Below, piece after piece: positions 9,501 through 20,406 of a stretch of 20,560 nucleotides of DNA. Under the pieces are notes generated by a model that was given only the letters and a program-made list of their open reading frames with translations, did not search any database and was not told the origin of the DNA. Every line of letters starts with the position of its first letter. The first letter of the stretch is position 1. A program made the position numbers and the translations under genes. This DNA comes from a virus. The stretch covers positions 1-20,560 of IMG/VR virus record IMGVR_UViG_3300044633_002029; one strand, given 5' to 3'.

Positions 9501-10642
9501 GTAATGGCTCCACGTGGGTGTCATCTGCTCCACCAATTACATTACCAACCCAAACAAGTAATAGTGGAAAATACTTAACTACTGATGGTACTAATGCATC
9601 ATGGTCAACTATTGTAACCGGTCTACAAGTAACTGCTATTAAAACCGCAGCGTATACCGCAGCAGTTAACGATTTAGTTAGATGTAATACTACATCAGGT
9701 GCAGTTACTATTACGTTTCCAGCTTCACCTACCGACGGTGCAGTTATTGGTATTATTGATGTTACTAAAACATTTGCTACTAATGCAGTTACTGTATTGC
9801 CAGGTAGTGGTGCTACTATCGAAGGCGATACATCTGCTATATTAGATATTAGTGGTACATATCTTACATTTATATATGTGTCATCAACTACTAATTGGAG
9901 AATGCAATTAACACCGTCGCCTCCTGTTACAGGAACCGGCTCTGGAAATAACGTGCTTGCAACTAGCCCGACTATGACTACATCAATCCTTACAGATTCA
10001 ACTAGTTTTAGTTTACTTAACACTACTGCAACTACTATTAACTTTGCAGGTGCTGCTACTACTTTAAATATTGGAGCAAGCACTGGAACCTTAACATTAA
10101 ACAACTCATCAGTTACCATTGGCGCAAGTGCAGGAACGCTAACTATAAATCCATCTACTGTAGTAGGCACACAAACAACACAAGCATTGTGGAATACTAC
10201 TGCAACTACTATTAACTTTGCAGGTGCTGCTACTACATTAAACATTGGGGCAAGCACTGGAACTACTTCTATTAAAAATAATACATCAGTAACTGGAAAC
10301 ATTTATGCAACCGGTGATGTATACTCATCATATTCTGATATTTTATTAAAGACCGTAACTGGTAAGATTACTAACGCATTAGATTCGATTTGTGCAATTG
10401 AAACATTTTATTATAGACCAAATGAGTTAGCACTTTCGTTAGGAATTAATGATGACGGTATTAAAGTAGGTGTAAACGCGCAGAGCGTACAAAAAGTTGC
10501 ACCAGAAGTAGTCGGTCCTAGTGCAATAGATGAAGAATTTTTAACTGTACAGTACGAACGATTAGTCCCGTACTTAATAGAATCAATAAAAGAATTAAGA
10601 GAAGAGGTTGCAATGCTAAAGGAGAAATTAAATGGCGTATAA
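6503..10642 (+). CDS. long modular tail fibre with C-terminal S74 chaperone domain
   Basis: A 1379-residue fibre. The N-terminus ('YGTLPVANGGTG') matches the 80-residue protein at 2702. The shaft is built from four copies of a module of about 145 residues (about 103-249, 337-483, 770-916 and 1014-1156). Each runs from 'LPTQTSNSGKYLTTDGT' through 'TLPASPVNGAIVG' to 'VSGTGTGSIVYATSPT'-type ends, with linkers such as 'LAANNVLLGNGTSALQAV' between them. The last 100 residues are a Peptidase S74 / endosialidase-type intramolecular chaperone: 'YSSYSDILLKTVTGKI', 'NAQSVQKVAPEVV', 'VQYERLVPYLIESIKELREE', with a C-terminal coiled coil. In that family the chaperone assists trimer folding and then cleaves itself off at a conserved Ser. 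The 'SD' near residue 1278 is the likely site (inference). The ATG follows AAAGGAA by 10 bases. Confidence 0.9.
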   Translation: MKNLSSVLRGTNYGTLPVANGGTGVITSTGSGSVVLSTSPTLVTPILGTPTSGNLSNCTNAIGYSLKSATTSIDVSSATAPSTGQVLTATSSTTATWQAINGLPTQTSNSGKYLTTDGTSASWATINAGLNVTTSKTANYTALAYDLVNANSTAGAFSITLPASPVNGAIVGVMDTAGTFAINSITVLPGSGATVESDTSVILDINGTYITFVYIAASTNWKVQGTPSATVSGTGTGSIVYATSPTLISPALGTPVSGNLANCTFPTLNQNTTGTAAGLSATLAVGSGGTGATTLAANNVLLGNGTSALQAVAPGTSGNLLTSNGTTWVSSSPPITLPTQTSNSGKFLTTDGTTASWATLNAGLNVTASKTANYTALAYDLVNANTTAGAFSITLPVSPVNGAIVGIMDTAGTFATNSVTVLPGSGSTIESDTSVVLDINSTYITFVYISASTNWKIQSTPSATVSGTGTGSIVYATSPTLVTPLLGTPTSGTLTNCTGYTFANLSTKPTTLSGYGITDAVLSSTIGAASGIAPLGSDSKISATYLPSYVDDVLEYANLAGFPATGETAKIYVALNTNAIYRWTGSAYIEISPTAGNADTATKLATARSISTTGDATWTVSFDGSANATAAITLANVVTAGTGTKVTYNAKGLITGSTTLTVSDITDIATNYQAKHANLTTISSLSTSTTGLIVMTNGVASLDTSTHLISGGALGTPTSGDLANCTNAVGYSLKSATTSVSISAATAPTTGQVLTATSSTTATWQAINGLPTQTSNSGKFLTTDGTNASWATLNAGLNVTATKTASYTAVAYDLVSANSTAGVFNITLPASPVNGAIVGIIDIAGTFATNNVTVLPGAGATVQSDTAVVLDINNTYVTFVYIAASTNWRVQNSPSRTVSGTGTGAVVYATSPTLVTPLLGTPTSGTLTNCTGYTYANLSGTTPTWDQNTTGTAAGLSATLAVASGGTGSTTLTANNVLLGNGTSALQAVAPGTTGNLLTSNGSTWVSSAPPITLPTQTSNSGKYLTTDGTNASWSTIVTGLQVTAIKTAAYTAAVNDLVRCNTTSGAVTITFPASPTDGAVIGIIDVTKTFATNAVTVLPGSGATIEGDTSAILDISGTYLTFIYVSSTTNWRMQLTPSPPVTGTGSGNNVLATSPTMTTSILTDSTSFSLLNTTATTINFAGAATTLNIGASTGTLTLNNSSVTIGASAGTLTINPSTVVGTQTTQALWNTTATTINFAGAATTLNIGASTGTTSIKNNTSVTGNIYATGDVYSSYSDILLKTVTGKITNALDSICAIETFYYRPNELALSLGINDDGIKVGVNAQSVQKVAPEVVGPSAIDEEFLTVQYERLVPYLIESIKELREEVAMLKEKLNGV
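6809..9975 (+). repeat. four diverged copies of a ~440-bp fibre module plus two linker copies
   Basis: Copies of the coding module begin at about 6809, 7511, 8811 and 9542 and run about 430-450 bases each. All start with a conserved 'acaagtaatagtgg' context. A second unit of about 200 bases, coding for 'NQNTTGTAAGLSATLAV' onward, occurs at 7309-7510 and 9339-9541 and leads straight into modules two and four. The copies differ mainly at third codon positions, so they are old duplications kept under protein-level constraint. The first three modules are closest to each other; the fourth is the most diverged. Confidence 0.85.
10022..10263 (+). repeat. 68-bp direct repeat with 174-bp period in the fibre shaft
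   Basis: Bases 10022-10089 and 10196-10263 encode the same segment 'TTATTINFAGAATTLNIGAS' and its continuation, and differ at only about three positions. A shortened, diverged copy ('SSVTIGASAGTLTI') lies between them. Low divergence suggests a more recent duplication than the large shaft modules. The repeat sits just before the S74 domain. Confidence 0.8.
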
Positions 10643-11717
10643 AGTAGGTGCTAATAATGCATTAATTGCCGACGAAAAAGGAGTATATCTCCCAAAATTT
10701 ACAACAAGCACTCGACCATCTAGTCCAGTTCAGGGACAGGTAATTTATAATACCGATACCGGATTTTTAGAAATGTGGGATAATTCATTAGCCGGATGGA
10801 CTGTAGTTTCTACTACATCAGCACTTCTTGTTCCATTTTTATATCGAACTATCATCACAACTGGTTATGTAATGGCTGGTTATCAAAGCACTAGTCCTTG
10901 GAAAAATGTTAATAAAATGGCACACGCAACTGACGTGTGTTCTAACTTAGGCGATTTATTACCTTTGGCTGGTGCGTATTGTGGCGGCGGGGCTAGTTTA
11001 ACTAAAGGATTTATATGGGGCGCGGATAACGCATGGCCAGGAACTACTACTAATATTGTTAGTTTTAATATGGCTTCAGACTCATCGGTGGCTACTATTT
11101 GGACTATGCGAAATTCAAGAAACGACTGTGAATCAGTGTTTAAAGAAACATTGTATTCATACATCTTTGGCGGCGGTCCTACCGACGTTGATGTATTTAA
11201 TATGACTACTGAAACTGTATTGGGAGCTCAAGGACTTACTTCAATGGGAGGTCAGCCAAGTTATCAATACGGAGTTAGCGCGATAAGCGACGAAACTAAA
11301 GGATTTGTATGGGGTGATGCTAATCAAAAACTTACTTTTGGAACTGGTGCCGCAGCGACGATTTCTACTGGTGCTATATCTGCGTCAAATTCTCAACAAA
11401 AAGGTATAAACAGTAAATTGGGAAAAGGTTACTGCGGGAATGAAGGCGACTACAATGGGGGTTATAATTTGCGCAGATGGCAATTTAGTACCGAAACTAG
11501 TTTAGGTACAGTTGCTAAACCAGTTGGTAATAGCGGAGAAGAAAACTTTGATATGGGACAAGCTCATCAATACATGTATGGAATGTACGACGGCGCTCAA
11601 AACAATCGCGGTTGGAGATTTAGTTATACAACGGAAACTGGAACCGAATTAGGTTCTGGTAGTATTAGAACAGGTGTTCCTGGTGGTAGTTCCGGTGCAT
11701 GTGCGTGGAAGGGGTAA
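10632..11717 (+). CDS. phage fibre/adhesin protein, paralogue 1 of a tandem pair
   Basis: A 361-residue protein overlapping the fibre gene by 11 bases; AAAGGAGA lies inside the fibre's end. Residues about 22-60 are the common phage fibre docking module 'TSTRPSSPVQGQVIYNTDTG' followed by 'LEMWDN..GW'. The rest carries recurring units of about 45-50 residues with motifs like 'VFNMTTETVLG', 'WQFSTETSLG' and 'WRFSYTTETGTELG', separated by Gly-rich turns. This is suggestive of a beta-propeller or kelch-like fold (inference from periodicity). The C-terminal 100 residues ('GYCGNEGDYNGGYNLRRW' to 'TGVPGGSSGACAWKG') are very similar to the next gene, whereas the middle (about residues 110-250) diverges. 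Likely a virion receptor-binding or fibre-tip protein; the exact role is not known. Confidence 0.75.
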   Translation: MAYKVGANNALIADEKGVYLPKFTTSTRPSSPVQGQVIYNTDTGFLEMWDNSLAGWTVVSTTSALLVPFLYRTIITTGYVMAGYQSTSPWKNVNKMAHATDVCSNLGDLLPLAGAYCGGGASLTKGFIWGADNAWPGTTTNIVSFNMASDSSVATIWTMRNSRNDCESVFKETLYSYIFGGGPTDVDVFNMTTETVLGAQGLTSMGGQPSYQYGVSAISDETKGFVWGDANQKLTFGTGAAATISTGAISASNSQQKGINSKLGKGYCGNEGDYNGGYNLRRWQFSTETSLGTVAKPVGNSGEENFDMGQAHQYMYGMYDGAQNNRGWRFSYTTETGTELGSGSIRTGVPGGSSGACAWKG

Positions 11718-11812
11718 ATTATGGCATTTATTAGTGCAACTACTGATGTGTTTAATACATTTGGTGTGAAGTTTCCAAAATTTACAACAAGCACTCGACC
11801 ATCTAGTCCAGT
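10692..11812 (+). repeat. 38-base perfect direct repeat shared by the tandem paralogues
   Basis: Bases 10692-10729 and 11775-11812 are identical over 38 positions, within the codons for the 'FTTSTRPSSPV' module. Elsewhere the two genes differ freely at silent sites even where the proteins agree. The perfect match therefore points to local gene conversion or recombination at this module boundary rather than protein constraint alone. Confidence 0.85.
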
Positions 11813-12770
11813 ACAAGGTCAAGTAATTTATAATACTGACAGTGGAAAATTAGAACTTTGGGATAATTCAACTAGAGGTTGGGTAGAAGTTACAACTGCT
11901 GCAAGAACATTCATGTATAATACAATTATTACTACTGGTTATGTAATGGCCGGATATCAAAATAGTAGTCCATGGAAAAATGTTAATAGGATGGCACACT
12001 CAACTGACGTGTGTACTAATTTAGGTGATTTGCTTTCATATGCAGGAGGTTATATTAGTGGTGCATGTAACTTAACACGTGGGTTTGCATTTTGTACAGG
12101 TGATGTAATGGCTAGCAGTAACTTAACTGCAGCATTTAATATGGCTACTGAAACAGGAGCCGGTACTAATACTAACTGGAATACTAGAATTAGTAGAGAC
12201 ATGCCAGGTACAACATTCAAAGAACATTTAATGGCATACATTATGGGCGGCGGGTCAACTGATGTCGATGTATTCAACATGACTACAGAAACTATGTTAG
12301 GACAGCAAAACCTAACTGCTGATTCCGGTACCGGTACTGCAATCAACGACGAAAAGGTTGGATATGCATACGGCGGAACTAACGCTCAAAAAATAACATT
12401 TGCAACTGCATCTATTACTACTACATCCGTATCTGGTTCACACGGTCAACAAAAGGGTATAAATAGCAAAACAGGCAATGGCTACTGCGGAAATGAAGGC
12501 AGCTACAATGGGGGTTATAACTTACGTAGATGGCAATTTAGTACTGAAACTAATTTAGGTACAGTTGCTAAACCAGTTAGTAACAGTGGAGAAGAAAACT
12601 TTGACATGGGACAGGATCATCAATATATGATGGGGTGTTATGACGGCGCTCAAAACAACCGAGGTTGGAGATTTAGTTATACCACCGAAACTGGAACTGA
12701 ATTAGGTTCTGGTAGTATACGCACCGGAGTACCTGGTGGTAGCTCTGGTCATTGCGCATGGAAAGGATAA
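11721..12770 (+). CDS. phage fibre/adhesin protein, paralogue 2 of a tandem pair
   Basis: A 349-residue protein starting 3 bases after paralogue 1, with GAAGGGG as ribosome site. It has the same architecture: 'TSTRPSSPVQGQVIYNTDSG' at about residues 19-38, then 'YVMAGYQNSSPWKNVNRMAH', recurring 'FNMATETG', 'VFNMTTETMLG', 'WQFSTETNLG' and 'WRFSYTTETGTELG' units, and a C-terminus nearly the same as its neighbour's. The two differ mostly in the central third. Where one has 'GGGASLTKGFIWGADNAWPG', the other has 'SGACNLTRGFAFCTGDVMAS'. Such a conserved frame with a variable centre would fit two alternative host-binding surfaces on a shared scaffold (inference). Confidence 0.75.
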   Translation: MAFISATTDVFNTFGVKFPKFTTSTRPSSPVQGQVIYNTDSGKLELWDNSTRGWVEVTTAARTFMYNTIITTGYVMAGYQNSSPWKNVNRMAHSTDVCTNLGDLLSYAGGYISGACNLTRGFAFCTGDVMASSNLTAAFNMATETGAGTNTNWNTRISRDMPGTTFKEHLMAYIMGGGSTDVDVFNMTTETMLGQQNLTADSGTGTAINDEKVGYAYGGTNAQKITFATASITTTSVSGSHGQQKGINSKTGNGYCGNEGSYNGGYNLRRWQFSTETNLGTVAKPVSNSGEENFDMGQDHQYMMGCYDGAQNNRGWRFSYTTETGTELGSGSIRTGVPGGSSGHCAWKG

Positions 12771-14273: not shown

Positions 14274-15890
14274 ATGTTCTCAATACCAATCAATCCTAAA
14301 CTTACACTACAACAATTTGAAACGTTTTATAATTTTTGTCAAGAATACAAAGATTACATTTATGACTTATACTTTACTTGCCGCATGCCGCCTTTTATAC
14401 AAGACGCAATGGGCGATGTTATTTTAAGTAACGAGTTTGCTCCAATCGAAACTGCACTACATATACAGGAGTCACTAGGGATTCCTGTAAGTGCAACATT
14501 CAACAATATCTTAATACGACCTTCTCAAGATACATTAGATCTGTTTATACAGAACTTTCAACATTTATACGATGCAGGTGTACGTTCTGCTACTATTCCA
14601 CATACACACTGGGTAGCTACTGGACAAATACAAAAACACTTTCCTGAGTTACTAATAAAAAATACAATTCTACGGAATGTATCTAGAGCTAATGAAGTTG
14701 CAGAACTTGCAAAAGCTGGTTTTCATTATATTAACATTGATCGAGATTTGATGCGTGATAGAGATACATTAATCCAAATTGATCGTGTACGAAAACAATT
14801 CAATGTTAAAATTGCATTGTTGTCTAATGAAGGTTGTGCTGGAAATTGTCCAATGATGGATGAACATTTTCAGTTTAACAACACTAGAATAGGGTCGAGT
14901 CCGCAATACTTCAATGATGTTATTAGTAGAGTTAGTTGTCCTAAGTGGGAATATACTGATCCTGCAACTCCTCTTAAGACTGCAAACTTACCTCCGTGGA
15001 AGGAAGACTGGGACGAATTACTGTCATATGTTGATGTTTTTAAAATGCATGGCAGAGAATCACATACTAGAATGTTTGAAACTATGGATATTATCAAACG
15101 ATATGCAAACAATGAACCGATACTGTTTAATACGTTCGACGAATACTTACAAGAAACTAATCTAGAAAATAAACCAATAGCTGCATGGCGTGAAAAAATT
15201 AAAAATTGTAAATTTGATTGCTGGGATTGTAATTTTTGTGATAACGTATACACAGCTAAAGCAAATCAACAATCACATCCATTAATCATTGCAGTAGTTA
15301 ATGAATTAGTAACTTCGGTTAATTATCCGGTTACTACAAATATACCTGGATTAACTTCTCCTAGAGTACAACAATTATTACACGGACTAGCAAAACACTG
15401 CAATAATTATCTTGAAATTGGATCTGCTAGTGGTGCAACTGCCCATGCAGTTGCTAGTTCTGGAATTAATACAATATGTGTAGATAACTGGAGTGTAAAC
15501 ATACAACCTCAAAGCGATGCATTTGAATTACCCGATAATACATTTGATTTATTTAATAAGAATATGATTGACTTTAAGAATGTTACTGTGTATAATAGTG
15601 ATTTACTAGCTGTAGATACTTTATTAATTAATAACATTGATTTATTCTTTTATGACGGACCACACGATTATATCACTACAGCTAATGCAGTTAAACATTA
15701 TACTAGGTCACTTGCTAGTCACGCAATACTAATTTTTGACGACGCTAATTGGGAAGAAGTAGTAGCAGGTGCTAACGCAGGTATTGATGATGCAGGGTTA
15801 ACTGTATTGTATAGTAAGAAAATGTTAAACAGTTTAGAAAACAGTTCTATGTGGTGGAACGGATTATATATTGTAGTAGTAGCAAAATGA
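14274..15890 (+). CDS. peptidase-U32-like protein fused to class I SAM methyltransferase
   Basis: A 538-residue fusion. Residues about 1-330 look like a U32-family TIM-barrel protein. The hallmark stretch 'LLSNEGCAGNCPMMDEH' (183-199) and other cysteines (C222 in 'SCPKW'; C312, C316, C319, C322) could ligate an iron-sulfur cluster, as is known for U32 proteins in tRNA/rRNA hydroxylation and ubiquinone synthesis. Residues about 355-538 are a Rossmann-type methyltransferase: motif I 'YLEIGSASGATAHAV' (379-393), acidic 'CVDNW' (402-406), 'IDLFFYDGPHDY' (455-466) and 'AILIFDDANWEEV' (484-496), reminiscent of Methyltransf_24/TylF-type O-methyltransferases. The substrate is unknown. It is the first gene of the cassette, 7 bases after the structural block, with no recognisable Shine-Dalgarno site. 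A protease role is unlikely, since U32 members often are not proteases. Confidence 0.75.
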   Translation: MFSIPINPKLTLQQFETFYNFCQEYKDYIYDLYFTCRMPPFIQDAMGDVILSNEFAPIETALHIQESLGIPVSATFNNILIRPSQDTLDLFIQNFQHLYDAGVRSATIPHTHWVATGQIQKHFPELLIKNTILRNVSRANEVAELAKAGFHYINIDRDLMRDRDTLIQIDRVRKQFNVKIALLSNEGCAGNCPMMDEHFQFNNTRIGSSPQYFNDVISRVSCPKWEYTDPATPLKTANLPPWKEDWDELLSYVDVFKMHGRESHTRMFETMDIIKRYANNEPILFNTFDEYLQETNLENKPIAAWREKIKNCKFDCWDCNFCDNVYTAKANQQSHPLIIAVVNELVTSVNYPVTTNIPGLTSPRVQQLLHGLAKHCNNYLEIGSASGATAHAVASSGINTICVDNWSVNIQPQSDAFELPDNTFDLFNKNMIDFKNVTVYNSDLLAVDTLLINNIDLFFYDGPHDYITTANAVKHYTRSLASHAILIFDDANWEEVVAGANAGIDDAGLTVLYSKKMLNSLENSSMWWNGLYIVVVAK

Positions 15891-16492
15891 AACGATTTCC
15901 TATATTATCAGCCGATGTATTTTATAAACAAAATATCGGAACACCTGAACAACGATCTCAATTATTAAAAGAAGCATGGAGTGTAAATCAATGCACTCCT
16001 GAAAGTATTAGTTTTTCAAACCACGGCTGTTGGCGTTCATTTTTTGAATATTCTGACATTAGTTGGCTAATGGCTGAAATTAAAGATAGCATTAACGCAG
16101 CGACTGGATATTATATTGAAACTGATCCTATATATAAAACAAAAACAGAGTCATTTTTAGATGCAGAAATAAAATACTGGACAAACATCAACAATCCAGG
16201 TAGTAAGAATAACTTACACGAACATAAATTACATCATTATGTTGCAGTGTATTATGTACAAGGTAGAGATACTGGAGAAATTATATTTCATAATCCTATG
16301 AATCTAACTGAAGGGTGTAATCCGTATGCTCCTTTTGTTAGTCCAATTTCTTTTAAACCAAATGACGGTGACTTGCTAGTTTGGCCAGCATGGTTACCTC
16401 ATGAAACTGAACCTAATAAATCAACTAGACATCGCATTAATATTGCATTTAACATACGGTTTTCTTGTCCACAACACATAAACTATGACTAA
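15887..16492 (+). CDS. 2OG-Fe(II) oxygenase (2OG-FeII_Oxy_5-like)
   Basis: I place the start at 15887, not the in-frame ATG at 15851. The later ATG overlaps the preceding stop as ATGA, and the 12 residues upstream lie inside the methyltransferase coding region. The 201-residue protein has a C-terminal double-stranded beta-helix like phage and marine-bacterial 2OG-FeII_Oxy_5 proteins: 'YWTNINNPGSKNNLHEHKLH' (97-116) with candidate metal ligands H111/H113, 'VAVYYVQG', then 'NDGDLLVWPAWLPHETEPN' (159-177) with H172 as distal metal ligand, and R183 in 'RHRINIAFNI' as candidate 2-oxoglutarate-binding Arg. Such enzymes hydroxylate proteins, nucleic acids or small molecules; the substrate is unknown. 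There is no Shine-Dalgarno site, so it is probably translationally coupled to the upstream gene. Confidence 0.8.
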   Translation: MKRFPILSADVFYKQNIGTPEQRSQLLKEAWSVNQCTPESISFSNHGCWRSFFEYSDISWLMAEIKDSINAATGYYIETDPIYKTKTESFLDAEIKYWTNINNPGSKNNLHEHKLHHYVAVYYVQGRDTGEIIFHNPMNLTEGCNPYAPFVSPISFKPNDGDLLVWPAWLPHETEPNKSTRHRINIAFNIRFSCPQHINYD

Positions 16493-17222
16493 AATAGAAT
16501 TCTATTCTGATGTATACGGATTAGCTGATGCTGTTCCTATTGTTAGGCCATCTAGCGAGTTACCTAATTGGGTATCATTAGCTAGAATGGATTACAAGCA
16601 ACAACCTAAAAATGCGTCGCATATATATAGATGCCCGGGTATTTTTGATCTGTTTAATTACGGATTTATAATTCCAGCATGGCATGATATAACGTTAACG
16701 CCAACTACTAATAATTTTAAATGGGAAATTCCAGATGATCGATTAATAGATCTTATGGGATCAACTTATGTTGCTGAGGCACATGATTCATCTACAATTG
16801 GTAAACACTTACCGAGACCACATTGGACTCACCCGTGTGTACTAAAGATTAATACACCATGGAATGTGTTAGCTCCAAAAGGTGTTAAATTTTTAATGAC
16901 TGCGGTACCTTATCCAGATAGTTACGAGTTTCAAGCAGTATCTGGTATATTAGATCCTGCAATTAGTACTAGTATTAATATCCAATTAAACTGGAATATT
17001 AATGCTTCGTATACTATCAAAGCAGGCACACCATTAGCACACTTAATACCATTAACTGAGAAAAAATACGATTTTGTAGTACGTGACAAAAATGAAAATG
17101 ACGAAAAATGGTCACTTAAACGAAAATACTTAAATGGCATGTCTTACATTATAAATCGAGCTAGATTAAAATCTGCATACGAACAACAAATTAAAAAACC
17201 GTTCTTTCAATTCTGGAAATAA
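16485..17222 (+). CDS. DUF6065-like protein of unknown function
   Basis: A 245-residue protein overlapping the oxygenase gene by 8 bases. The pattern resembles a family of phage and bacterial proteins that I associate with DUF6065 (from memory): an N-terminal 'LPNWVSLARM', then 'IYRCPGIFDLFNYGFIIPAW' (about residues 47-66), a central 'FKWEIPDD', 'LKINTPWNVLAPKGVKFLM' (about 119-137), and a C-terminal 'IKAGTPLAHLIPLTEKKY'. The alternation suggests an all-beta fold without signal peptide or membrane segments. No catalytic motif is evident. It lies in an overlapping array with an oxygenase and a methyltransferase fusion, which suggests a shared pathway, but no reaction can be assigned. Confidence 0.65.
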   Translation: MTKIEFYSDVYGLADAVPIVRPSSELPNWVSLARMDYKQQPKNASHIYRCPGIFDLFNYGFIIPAWHDITLTPTTNNFKWEIPDDRLIDLMGSTYVAEAHDSSTIGKHLPRPHWTHPCVLKINTPWNVLAPKGVKFLMTAVPYPDSYEFQAVSGILDPAISTSINIQLNWNINASYTIKAGTPLAHLIPLTEKKYDFVVRDKNENDEKWSLKRKYLNGMSYIINRARLKSAYEQQIKKPFFQFWK

Positions 17223-17226
17223 TTAA

Positions 17227-18258
17227 ATGGATTACTCATTACTGTTTAAAGACCTCTCATTTGTGTTAATGATTGGGTTTATTATGATCAGTGCAGGGTT
17301 AGCAAAAGAATTTAAATTATTTGCACCCGCAGTTTCATTGATAAAAAATACTGTTAAAAATAACAGAATAATAATTATACTAATAAGTGCAGTCGGTGGT
17401 ATATTACCAATCGAAGGTCGTGTAGTAGTTTCTGCAGGTTTCCTTGATTCAGTATCACTACCGACTAAGAACAGAGAAAAACTAGGTATTATCGACTTTA
17501 TGTCAACTCATCATTATTACTTATGGTCGCCACTTGAAAAAACTGTTATCTTACCAATGGCAGCTTTTGGTTTGTCATATGTAGACTGGCTTACTTATGT
17601 TTTACCTATCCTGTTAGTTAGTCTTGTTTACATTAGTTGGTATATTTGTACTAACATACACGATGCTGATATTTACATACCTAATGTGAGTTTTAACCTT
17701 TGGGAGTTGTTATATCAATCATTTCCAATGTTTGTTGCTATTGGATTATACATTTACGGTACTGATAAATTAATTTGCTTTGGCGCGTTAGCATCATACT
17801 ATGTTATTATCACTCGATATGTTAATATCTTAAAATATATCAACTGGAATTTAATTATAATTGTTGCAAGCGTGATTATCTTAAGCAATTATATAAAACT
17901 GCATAGCGGAGAACTAGAAATGTTTATCAAGTCAACTTCGTACAATATGGATACAATATATGGATTTATTGGAATTTCAGTAGGTGCATTTATGTTTAGC
18001 TTTATTACAGGTAGCAGTGGTAAATTTATTGCACTTGCGATTGTGCTATCTCAACTTTTTGGCCATGAGTACTTCTTATGGTTTTTTACACTAGAATACG
18101 CTGCGTATTTAATCAGTCCTACTCATAAATGCGTTGCAGTCGGTAATCAGTATTTTGGAACTACACTATCAACCTATTACAAAGCCCTTATTACATGGGG
18201 TGTATTATTAACATTAACTACAGGAATTTTAACTTATTATGAGATATTTAATTTTTAG
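17227..18258 (+). CDS. polytopic inner-membrane protein, DUF401-like permease
   Basis: A 343-residue hydrophobic protein with about nine to eleven membrane segments (for example residues 8-24, 47-66, 122-141, 163-178, 181-198, 207-221, 244-262, 284-298, 319-337). Two re-entrant-type motifs recall the DUF401 family, which belongs to the ion-transporter/ArsB-NhaD-like superfamily: 'GGILPIEGRVVVSAG' (57-71; family form is like LLPMPGGALxSAP) and 'LISPTHKCVAVGNQYF' (295-310), plus 'FITGSSGKFIAL' (259-270). The length is slightly short for the family. The substrate is unknown. It starts 4 bases after the previous stop and overlaps the outer-membrane receptor gene by 20 bases, so the two are almost certainly co-expressed. 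Together they would span both membranes of a Gram-negative host (inference). No strong Shine-Dalgarno site is seen. Confidence 0.7.
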   Translation: MDYSLLFKDLSFVLMIGFIMISAGLAKEFKLFAPAVSLIKNTVKNNRIIIILISAVGGILPIEGRVVVSAGFLDSVSLPTKNREKLGIIDFMSTHHYYLWSPLEKTVILPMAAFGLSYVDWLTYVLPILLVSLVYISWYICTNIHDADIYIPNVSFNLWELLYQSFPMFVAIGLYIYGTDKLICFGALASYYVIITRYVNILKYINWNLIIIVASVIILSNYIKLHSGELEMFIKSTSYNMDTIYGFIGISVGAFMFSFITGSSGKFIALAIVLSQLFGHEYFLWFFTLEYAAYLISPTHKCVAVGNQYFGTTLSTYYKALITWGVLLTLTTGILTYYEIFNF

Positions 18259-19999
18259 TATATCATTATTACTGTCATTTCCATGCTTTTCAGAAATAGA
18301 AATTGACATTACAGAAGGTATTGAACTACTAACCTCTACAGTTAACGGTACTAACTATGAAGTTCAACAACAGTTAACTCCATCTACATTTGCTAGTTCA
18401 ACTCCAATACAACAAACTTCTCCCGGTTTGAAAAGTCCATACATTGGTGCATTTACTGGAAACCAAGTTGATCAAACTATTAACGGAATTAGAATGAATA
18501 ATTCGTTATTCCGCTCTGGTCCTAATCAGTATTACAGTTGGGTACCAGATGCATTTACTAAGTCAGTAGGTGTATCAGACGGTGGTAACATTGGCGGTAC
18601 TATTAATCGTGAGATAGGAGTTGACTCTTCACACGTTGGCGGTACATTTGATTCTGCATTAGGATGGATACAATCTGCATCATATAAAACTAGCAAATAC
18701 GGCATTGGATTTAGTGGTACTGATTATGGTAATGTAGAAACTGCAGATGGTACAATTCCACATAGCTCTTATAATAATAAAGCTGCAATTGGAGAATACA
18801 ACTGGAATGATAATAATCGATCAGTATTTGTGTTTTCTAATTCAGGCGACTTAGATCGTACAGATAAATGGAATGGCGGGTACCGAATTTCAGGATTACA
18901 AAAACCTACCCCATATACATGGTTAGACCAATCTTATTACAATTTCAATCACACTATGAGTTATGATAAATTTCATTTAACTACAGGTTATCAAAAATTT
19001 AGTGAAGAAATATTAGATGGCACTAAATTTATTAATACTGATCTAAATCAATACACAGTTAACGGTGATTATTTCTTAACTAATAACCTTAGTTTGTATT
19101 CTGCAAATACAGTTGAAGACATTACATATGATAACGGAGTTGCACAATCAGCAACTAATAAAAATCCTCAAATTTCAAATGATCTGTACACTACTACAAA
19201 GCAAGGTGTTCGATGGAAGCGCAATGGACTAATTAACACAACAATAAGCGGCGGGGCTAAAGAAGTTCAAGCAACTGATGTTTTAAGTTTTGTAGATCCA
19301 GAAGGGTCTGTTATTTTTGATCACAATGGGTACTTTGCAAGTTTTGACAGCAGTGTAAATGCTCCATCTTATGCAAACTTAAAACAATCGCAAACTACTG
19401 GTAGAGGAAAAAGTATTGCAAATCCTAATTTAACTGAAGAACGCGCAAATACATTTAAAATTGGATATTCTCTTAATGGTTTATATATTGATGTGTATAG
19501 AAAACTAGTAGACAATGTAATTAATTCTAAAACTGTTGCTAAAAATACATATATGCCAGTTAACTTTGGTACTGCTACAGTTAATGGCGGGACTATTGGA
19601 TATACTAACTCATCGTTGTTTAATACGCTATTTGGTATCAATACACGACTTAATGTTACGGATAGCTCTATTTCTAAACTAACTGGCGGATACGAACCAA
19701 TCACTAAAGTATCTCCATTTACTGGGTTTATTAGAGTGAACTATAACAAAGTTTGGAGTGAGTTTAGTTACCAAGCACCTGATCATGATATGTCTGTTGC
19801 CGACCTAGATGATGTTAGAACATATCAGTATGCAAAAGGTTATAAATTAGTTAACATTGGGTATACTGATAATGTCTTCAAGCAATTTGAATATACAGTA
19901 GGTATTAACAATTTATTAGATAACAATGGACGAATTTTAGGTTCATCAGTAAATGTTCCTGAAAGAAGTGCAGTATTAAAAGTAAGATATAACTTCTAA
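18239..19999 (+). CDS. TonB-dependent-receptor-like outer-membrane protein
   Basis: A 586-residue protein. Residues 1-18 form a signal peptide (MRY, hydrophobic core, then 'CFS' before E19). Residues about 45-128 are a plug domain: 'GLKSPYIGAFTGNQVDQTIN' (63-82), 'GIRMNNSLFRSGPNQYYSW' (83-101) and 'GGNIGGTINREI' (115-126), matching the TonB-dependent receptor plug pattern. The barrel follows, with the family's 'NPNLTEERANTFKIGYSLNG' segment, 'FASFDSSVNAPSYANL' (the 'gFRaPtl' region), and a C-terminal 'GINNLLDN...VPERSAVLKVRYNF' ending in Phe, as needed for outer-membrane insertion. In the family such proteins import siderophores, vitamins or glycans using TonB. Differences here are the small size (families are mostly 650-800), the short plug and no clear TonB box. 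Base composition is like its neighbours. It overlaps the DUF401-like gene by 20 bases. Confidence 0.85.
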   Translation: MRYLIFSISLLLSFPCFSEIEIDITEGIELLTSTVNGTNYEVQQQLTPSTFASSTPIQQTSPGLKSPYIGAFTGNQVDQTINGIRMNNSLFRSGPNQYYSWVPDAFTKSVGVSDGGNIGGTINREIGVDSSHVGGTFDSALGWIQSASYKTSKYGIGFSGTDYGNVETADGTIPHSSYNNKAAIGEYNWNDNNRSVFVFSNSGDLDRTDKWNGGYRISGLQKPTPYTWLDQSYYNFNHTMSYDKFHLTTGYQKFSEEILDGTKFINTDLNQYTVNGDYFLTNNLSLYSANTVEDITYDNGVAQSATNKNPQISNDLYTTTKQGVRWKRNGLINTTISGGAKEVQATDVLSFVDPEGSVIFDHNGYFASFDSSVNAPSYANLKQSQTTGRGKSIANPNLTEERANTFKIGYSLNGLYIDVYRKLVDNVINSKTVAKNTYMPVNFGTATVNGGTIGYTNSSLFNTLFGINTRLNVTDSSISKLTGGYEPITKVSPFTGFIRVNYNKVWSEFSYQAPDHDMSVADLDDVRTYQYAKGYKLVNIGYTDNVFKQFEYTVGINNLLDNNGRILGSSVNVPERSAVLKVRYNF

Positions 20000-20007
20000 A
20001 TAATTTA

Positions 20008-20041
20008 ATCCTCATTTTACGATAAATATTAGAATGAGGAT
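20008..20041 (+). promoter_or_regulatory. hairpin enclosing a late-promoter-like site and covering the next gene's ribosome site
   Basis: Perfect 9-base arms, ATCCTCATT at 20008-20016 and AATGAGGAT at 20033-20041, enclose a 16-base loop. The 3' arm contains GAGGA (20036-20040), the ribosome site for the ATG at 20047. The loop contains GATAAATA. In read-through RNA the ribosome site would be paired. RNA started at the late promoter would lack the 5' arm and leave it free. There is no U-run after the stem, so it is not a good factor-independent terminator, though termination after the cassette remains possible. Confidence 0.65.
20021..20028 (+). promoter_or_regulatory. T4-type late promoter-like octamer
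   Basis: GATAAATA matches the T4 late consensus TATAAATA at 7 of 8 positions, the best of the three sites, and lies 18 bases before the ATG at 20047. It marks the return to virion genes after the cassette. Confidence 0.6.
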
Positions 20042-20046
20042 CAATT

Positions 20047-20406
20047 ATGTCACGATTAATTATTAAAACAGGTACACTTCCAAACGATAAAAGCGGCGAT
20101 AGTTTATTCGCTGCTTTTAACAAAGTTAATGCTAACTTTACGGAATTGTATTCTATCACCGGCGGTACAACTGCCAATCTCAAAGAACTTATACAAGATA
20201 CAATAGCAGAAATGATAGCCAACGGTACTCTGTTTGGCTTATCTGCTAATTATGACGACCCAAATAACGCACTTGATTTATATAATACATCTGCAACTGT
20301 AGATAACGGTTTTGCATCTACAATATTTGAGGATCTAATTTTTGACGGCGGTAACGCTACTACAGATACATTTACAGATATGCTAATCAACGGAGGAGCC
20401 GCATAA
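20047..20406 (+). CDS. short phage structural protein (fibre/baseplate-associated)
   Basis: A 119-residue protein whose N-terminus, 'IKTGTLPNDKSGDSLFAAFN' followed by 'KVNANFTELYS', is a motif recurrent at the start of fibre and baseplate proteins of T4-like marine phages ('GDSLRTAFxKVNxNFTELY' type). The remainder is acidic, with a repeat-like tail: 'STIFEDLIFDGGNA' and 'DTFTDMLINGGAA'. The ribosome site GAGGA lies 6 bases before the ATG and within the 3' arm of a hairpin. It overlaps the next gene by one base (TAATG). Function is inferred from the motif and position only. Confidence 0.75.
   Translation: MSRLIIKTGTLPNDKSGDSLFAAFNKVNANFTELYSITGGTTANLKELIQDTIAEMIANGTLFGLSANYDDPNNALDLYNTSATVDNGFASTIFEDLIFDGGNATTDTFTDMLINGGAA

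Follow-up and report, generated by a model that had tools for sequence, protein, structure and literature searches.

The stretch of DNA analyzed here (the window), from a large aquatic bacteriophage, is an entire IMG/VR contig of 20,560 bases, the large genes of which are all located on the plus strand. They encode repeat/fiber proteins, two phrog_1417 proteins, phrog_1409 and phrog_1604 proteins, and then a series that extends from phrog_1458 to a gp9/10-like connector. The two phrog_1417 paralogs are arranged in tandem at positions 10632-11717 and 11721-12770, and relatives possess two or three copies. The series comprises (i) a phrog_1458 protein with a C-terminal methyltransferase domain (14274-15890), a conserved neighbor that is ~44% identical in cyanophages, (ii) a 2OG-Fe(II) oxygenase identified by family match (15851-16492), (iii) a phrog_7084 protein identified by PHROG match, which is a frequent upstream neighbor (16485-17222), (iv) the proposed partner gene for a DUF401-family inner-membrane transporter (phrog_14035; 17227-18258), (v) a compact TonB-dependent receptor (TBDR) of 586 amino acids (18239-19999), and (vi) a protein resembling the N-terminal part of T4 gp9/gp10 (tail-fiber connector), identified by family match 3' of the TBDR gene (20047-20406). 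The nearest annotated relatives of the neighbor genes are found in T4-like cyanophages, with about 30 to 45% identity. The phrog_1458 protein is conserved beside most TBDR loci; it is encoded by a single gene in the window but split in loci L010 and L012, where one gene encodes the N-terminal part and another the methyltransferase. Positions 20008-20046, 5' of the gp10-like gene, contain the inverted repeat ATCCTCATTTTA...TAGAATGAGGAT around the late-promoter-like sequence GATAAATA.

The first-pass annotation had assigned the open reading frame at 18239-19999 to the TBDR family. This open reading frame and all the quoted motifs are present, and the assignment was borne out by the predicted fold, structural matches, and matches to the barrel family model and to a receptor profile. 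An AlphaFold2 model based on a 19-sequence alignment (pLDDT 78.2, pTM 0.78) contains both the plug and the 22 barrel strands that had been expected (broken strands counted once); the stretches of low confidence are residues 1-43 (pLDDT <50) and 92-96. A model calculated without an alignment had a pLDDT of 27.6 and was discarded in favor of this one. Long and short gaps alternate between the modeled strands, corresponding to the long loops and short turns of the expected TBDR topology. A Foldseek search with the model returned 236 PDB chains at an E value of ≤0.001, the best being BtuB (1.3e-19), with PhuR, Cir, FrpB, and many more among the other matches. By eye, the protein starts with a signal peptide (residues 1-18, MRYLIFSISLLLSFPCFS; 18239-18292), and the barrel defined by the model and the PDB fold matches (residues 132-586; 18632-19996) ends in an aromatic F. 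The proposed search with plug and barrel profiles was successful for relatives: the barrel model PF00593 matches 4 of the 19 family members (best, 9.1e-13), and the family profile matches the heme receptor PhuR (1.3e-10). For the plug model PF07715, the best family member reached 0.0013, and the window protein alone stayed below the cutoff (13.2 bits). On its own, the window protein also had no confident match in PHROG, NCBIfam, PDB sequences, or INPHARED (50,697 phage records). Membership in the TBDR family is thus confirmed at the level of sequence and modeled fold; TonB-driven transport of a ligand is its putative function.

Canonical TBDRs such as BtuB, Cir, PhuR, and ChuA (PF07715 plus PF00593) share with the window protein the signal peptide, the N-terminal plug, the 22-strand barrel, and the C-terminal aromatic residue. 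The window protein differs in being phage encoded beside DUF401, in its 11 to 15% identity, and in its shortened plug, which was delimited by model and alignment (residues 44-131; 18368-18631) and contains FRSGPNQYYSW. Compared to the nearest canonical TBDRs, this compact plug lacks ~28 residues between the TonB box and the plug core and, within the conserved RGPSSVLYGS stretch, another ~8 residues, and both deletions are common to all phage members and to four members from Sulfurimonadaceae. At the TonB-box position, relatives have clear motifs after the signal peptide (LDPVVVTAT, LDEVVVVAG, and LKEVVVVGG), whereas the alignment suggests a degenerate TonB-box-like stretch in the window copy (IELLTSTV, residues 28-35; 18320-18343). 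In the phylogenetic tree, the compact TBDRs form a clade of 20 members (support 100/100) separate from the canonical TBDRs. The 12 sequences from T4-like phages make up a single subclade of it (100/100), and the sequences from other phages and from Campylobacterota are interleaved, as might be expected after repeated exchange, with some long-branch joins unsure. Conservation peaks in the plug core at 0.72 and is 0.50 in the strands and 0.52 in the extracellular loops, a pattern more in keeping with an importer than with a decoy. Close TBDR pairs have dN/dS values of about 0.05 to 0.15, indicating purifying selection on the protein.

A scan of IMG/VR with the full-length window TBDR as a single protein gave no match, a 60-amino-acid plug query retrieved 14 viral contigs, and the alignment of those retrieved 29. 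These 29 other contigs represent at least three phage lineages, and their homologs, mostly full-length and intact, are 41 to 50% identical to the window protein in T4-like contigs and 26 to 27% identical in the others. In 22 of the 23 T4-like contigs with a TBDR, the gene directly adjoins a DUF401-like gene; the remaining contig ends inside the TBDR gene. The first-pass annotation had considered that an assembly chimera of phage and bacterial DNA would refute its reading. The base composition of the TBDR gene is that of its flanks, its first 20 bases are shared with the DUF401 phage gene upstream, and homologs keep the same phage neighbor in 22 other contigs. We therefore regard a chimera or bacterial contamination as ruled out, with a negligible residual probability, and the same neighbor and overlap support the claim that the TBDR is encoded by a phage within a region of structural genes.

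A search of viromes for orthologs beside fiber genes had been proposed; homologs do exist, and the distant members (L040-L044) are surrounded by nonstructural genes. Expression together with the tail fibers was not borne out, as no exact match to the late promoter TATAAATA is located directly upstream of the TBDR gene, and matches with one mismatch in the window do not exceed the chance level. The location among tail-fiber and neck genes would also suit a decoy or virion part, namely, a TBDR that captures ligands from the host or competing phages, either as a component carried inside or on the virion or as a shed protein. Given the N-terminal signal peptide, the 22-strand membrane barrel, the integral inner-membrane partner, and the nonstructural surroundings of the distant members, we consider this very improbable. 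In close relatives whose flanks are the same, the corresponding slot is occupied by a different barrel (L155, L157, L158, and L189) or by nothing (L182, L183, L192, and L198), and the empty or different slot in L182, L183, and L158 indicates that the TBDR is dispensable for the virion. Phage encoded, virion dispensable, and conserved under selection, the gene can be classed as a phage auxiliary metabolic gene.

Several other genes were observed at the related loci. In L005-L007, the TBDR gene is flanked by DUF401 on one side and by a Dps-like ferritin gene on the other, with neck and terminase genes following. A Dps-like ferritin gene is present between the DUF401/barrel slot and the T4-like neck genes in L005-L008, L155, L158, L182, and L183, and a flavin-dependent tryptophan-halogenase-like gene is found near the DUF401 pair in L005, L006, L007, and L029 (PF04820, 5.7e-93 in L005). 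In L022, L024, and L028, a tRNA-Arg(CCG) gene is located ~30 bases 5' of the TBDR start, a site that is perhaps an insertion hot spot.

The key to reading this locus is the DUF401 partner, which the first-pass annotation had not seen. The DUF401 model PF04165 matches eight of the nine phage members of the partner alignment (best, 3e-13); the window copy alone is not matched and aligns at 53% to members that are. A weak match to CitMHS was seen as well. DUF401 and TBDR genes are directly adjacent in every T4-like TBDR locus that is not cut off, in the order DUF401-TBDR in the window and in L005-L009 and in the order TBDR-DUF401 in L010-L017 and L022-L037. Since both orders are kept, the pair survives rearrangement. 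Two further phage contigs, one of 281 kb that carries a gene for a multisubunit-type RNA polymerase and one of 96 kb that carries a gene for a type II topoisomerase, each encode a distant TBDR (27% identity) and, nonadjacently, DUF401. Phage-type DUF401 was detected in at least 551 viral contigs, and isolates that encode it include the Synechococcus phages S-CAM4 and S-H25. A search without an internal positive control found no bacterial homologs at an E value of ≤1e-10 in 345 and 321 genomes of two classes. A DnaK-like gene (625 amino acids) is located directly 3' of the phage DUF401 gene in L149 and L150.

We then analyzed the slot downstream of DUF401 in the best 80 of the at least 551 DUF401 contigs and in three cyanophages, which provided 44 nonredundant downstream genes. 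Barrels were recognized by a home-made heuristic requiring a signal peptide, a C-terminal beta signal, and no other membrane helix. In this sample, the gene directly 3' of DUF401 was barrel-like in 28 of 44 cases; among the other genes, the figure was 7 of 434 (odds ratio of 107; P = 1.4e-27). The P value is not exact, given the heuristic nature of the barrel test and the kinship among the loci. The slot barrels of these contigs fall into six sequence-unrelated groups, and curated models support several of them: a siderophore-type canonical TBDR of 717 amino acids (PF00593, 2e-43; TIGR01783, 2.7e-58), a TorF-type porin (4e-50), OMP_b-brl, and DUF2490. Another group consists of proteins of 287 to 304 amino acids, some of which have the TonB-box-like motif LDEVVVTAK. 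In the pmoC phages L144 (3300031813_000669) and L145 (3300004807_000233), DUF401 is followed by the 717-amino-acid siderophore-type TBDR. One phage with this TBDR also carries gp32, gp6, and PhoH genes, which, along with pmoC, point to T4-like phages that probably infect methane oxidizers. The text of the pmoC-phage paper (PMC7674155) mentions neither TonB nor DUF401. Matches of the siderophore-type TBDR in INPHARED, mostly Acinetobacter phage MD-2021a records, contained many chromosomal-type TBDRs and were judged to be bacterial DNA.

The other 16 of the 44 phage DUF401 genes in this sample, including those of cyanophages S-H25 and MbCM1, have no barrel alongside. Such genes, and the gathering of 2OG-Fe(II) oxygenase, halogenase, and Dps genes in the same region, are what one would expect if two independent host-derived uptake genes happened to occupy one site where auxiliary metabolic genes are carried as cargo, without forming a joint system. 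However, the pair is kept in both orders, it co-occurs nonadjacently in two other phage lineages, and the same slot is used by six unrelated barrel families, and we hence judge the shared-site explanation to be quite unlikely.

Our preferred reading, which we hold to be probable, is that TBDR and DUF401 constitute a phage-encoded nutrient uptake cassette that spans two membranes and has an exchangeable outer-membrane half. The TBDR would be exported to the outer membrane of the host during infection, where it would bind a scarce solute, and would be opened by the TonB-ExbB-ExbD complex of the host. That TonB is supplied by the host is suggested by the search for TonB_C, carried out as a clue to the energy source, which had no match in 12 phage contigs and did match the control genomes. 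DUF401 would then convey the solute, in whole or in part, through the inner membrane. Other phages fill the same slot with a canonical TBDR, a small TonB-box-like barrel, or a porin-like barrel, and the outer-membrane half is probably exchanged as an adaptation to host or substrate. There is about an even chance that phages widely encode full two-membrane import in this manner, combining the virus-specific DUF401 with an exchangeable gate (compact TBDR, siderophore-type TBDR, TonB-box barrel, or porin) and drawing on host TonB for those gates that require it. Against the cassette reading stand the TonB-box-like stretch of the window copy, which is both degenerate and modeled with low confidence, and the phage DUF401 genes that have no barrel alongside.

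Among the three roles initially proposed for the TBDR, feeding of the infected cell is thus favored, because of the DUF401 transporter partner, the conserved plug core, the TonB-box-like motifs of relatives, and the ExbB/ExbD/TonB and phosphatase neighbors of cellular relatives, and the decoy role is disfavored. The masking role is retained as a rival, in which the barrel would take the place of host receptors or cover them, the inner-membrane protein would keep DNA from entering, and the pair would act in superinfection exclusion. TBDRs serve many phages as receptors, and Cor of phages phi80 and N15 inactivates FhuA (PMC11436027); furthermore, the variety of barrels beside DUF401 would suit a change of surface as well as transport. 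However, the inner-membrane partner is from a transporter-like family (DUF401, with its weak CitMHS match), relatives retain TonB-box-like motifs, and the surface loops are less conserved than the plug core within the barrel, whereas a surface decoy would call for the reverse. Surface remodeling therefore appears unlikely.

As to the substrate of the proposed uptake cassette, the nearest cellular relatives are informative. All four loci encoding a compact TBDR in Sulfurimonadaceae (L045, L046, L129, and L130) are located among phosphatase genes, and three of the four also contain ExbB/ExbD/TonB. These loci form phosphorus-scavenging islands in which the compact TBDR occurs with PhoX, PhoD, phosphoesterase, or phytase. 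The proteins share with the window TBDR the shortened plug, the FRSGPNQYFSWIP-type motif, and the supported clade of 20, but are chromosomal, about 26 to 27% identical, and encoded in genomes that lack DUF401, so that what holds in the cellular setting may not apply to the phage pair. Precedents for TBDRs in phosphorus scavenging are those of Flavobacterium, which are induced by phosphate depletion (PMC8115612), and Cc0171 of Caulobacter (PMC2996285); both are cellular, and the substrate is not settled there either. Given the phosphatase neighbors at all four of these cellular loci, a phosphorus compound is our first, tentative guess by analogy. PstS, sought as a further clue to the substrate, was absent from 18 phage contigs. 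An iron complex, which is suggested by the Dps neighbor, the siderophore-type TBDR in L144, and the heme receptors being nearest by sequence, is the second and more doubtful guess.

Cyanophage PstS is a transporter auxiliary gene and an example of phage-borne nutrient uptake. It serves the host transporter in one compartment, whereas the TBDR-DUF401 pair would cover both membranes. Lc of the temperate phage PA-2 is a lysogenic-conversion porin linked to receptor exclusion. Like the TBDR, Lc is a phage-encoded outer-membrane barrel; unlike it, Lc is a porin and has no inner-membrane transporter partner. The sole phage TBDR that we found in BFVD is a SusC of an uncultured marine phage (A0A8D9FQQ5), which we infer to be the SusC-like TBDR of megaphage Mar_Mega_1, likewise read as a nutrient gene (PMC9723777). 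That protein differs in its length (805 amino acids), its SusC type, and its 13% identity, and pairing with DUF401 was not reported. Scanned window proteins gave no match to a SusD-like lipoprotein, and the related loci are flanked by phage genes. A TBDR has also been annotated in the pelagiphage Polarivirus skadi, where it was read as a pointer to the entry receptor (PMC10504331); this protein was not matched in the database search with the window protein. In the literature found, with most subscription journals outside its coverage, neither a DUF401 pairing nor an exchangeable outer-membrane slot is described.

There is a fair chance that the TBDR-DUF401 cassette represents a new kind of system. 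Phage nutrient genes known to date mostly lend a single part to a host pathway. If this reading is true, the virus equips the cell with an outer-membrane gate and an inner-membrane carrier of its own, which would change the view of resource limits in infections in nutrient-poor water, and TBDRs would have a second role in phage biology besides that of receptors. It would also place DUF401 in a functional context and offer for experimental tests a phage gene pair that many viral genomes contain, among them those of phages with methane-monooxygenase subunit C.
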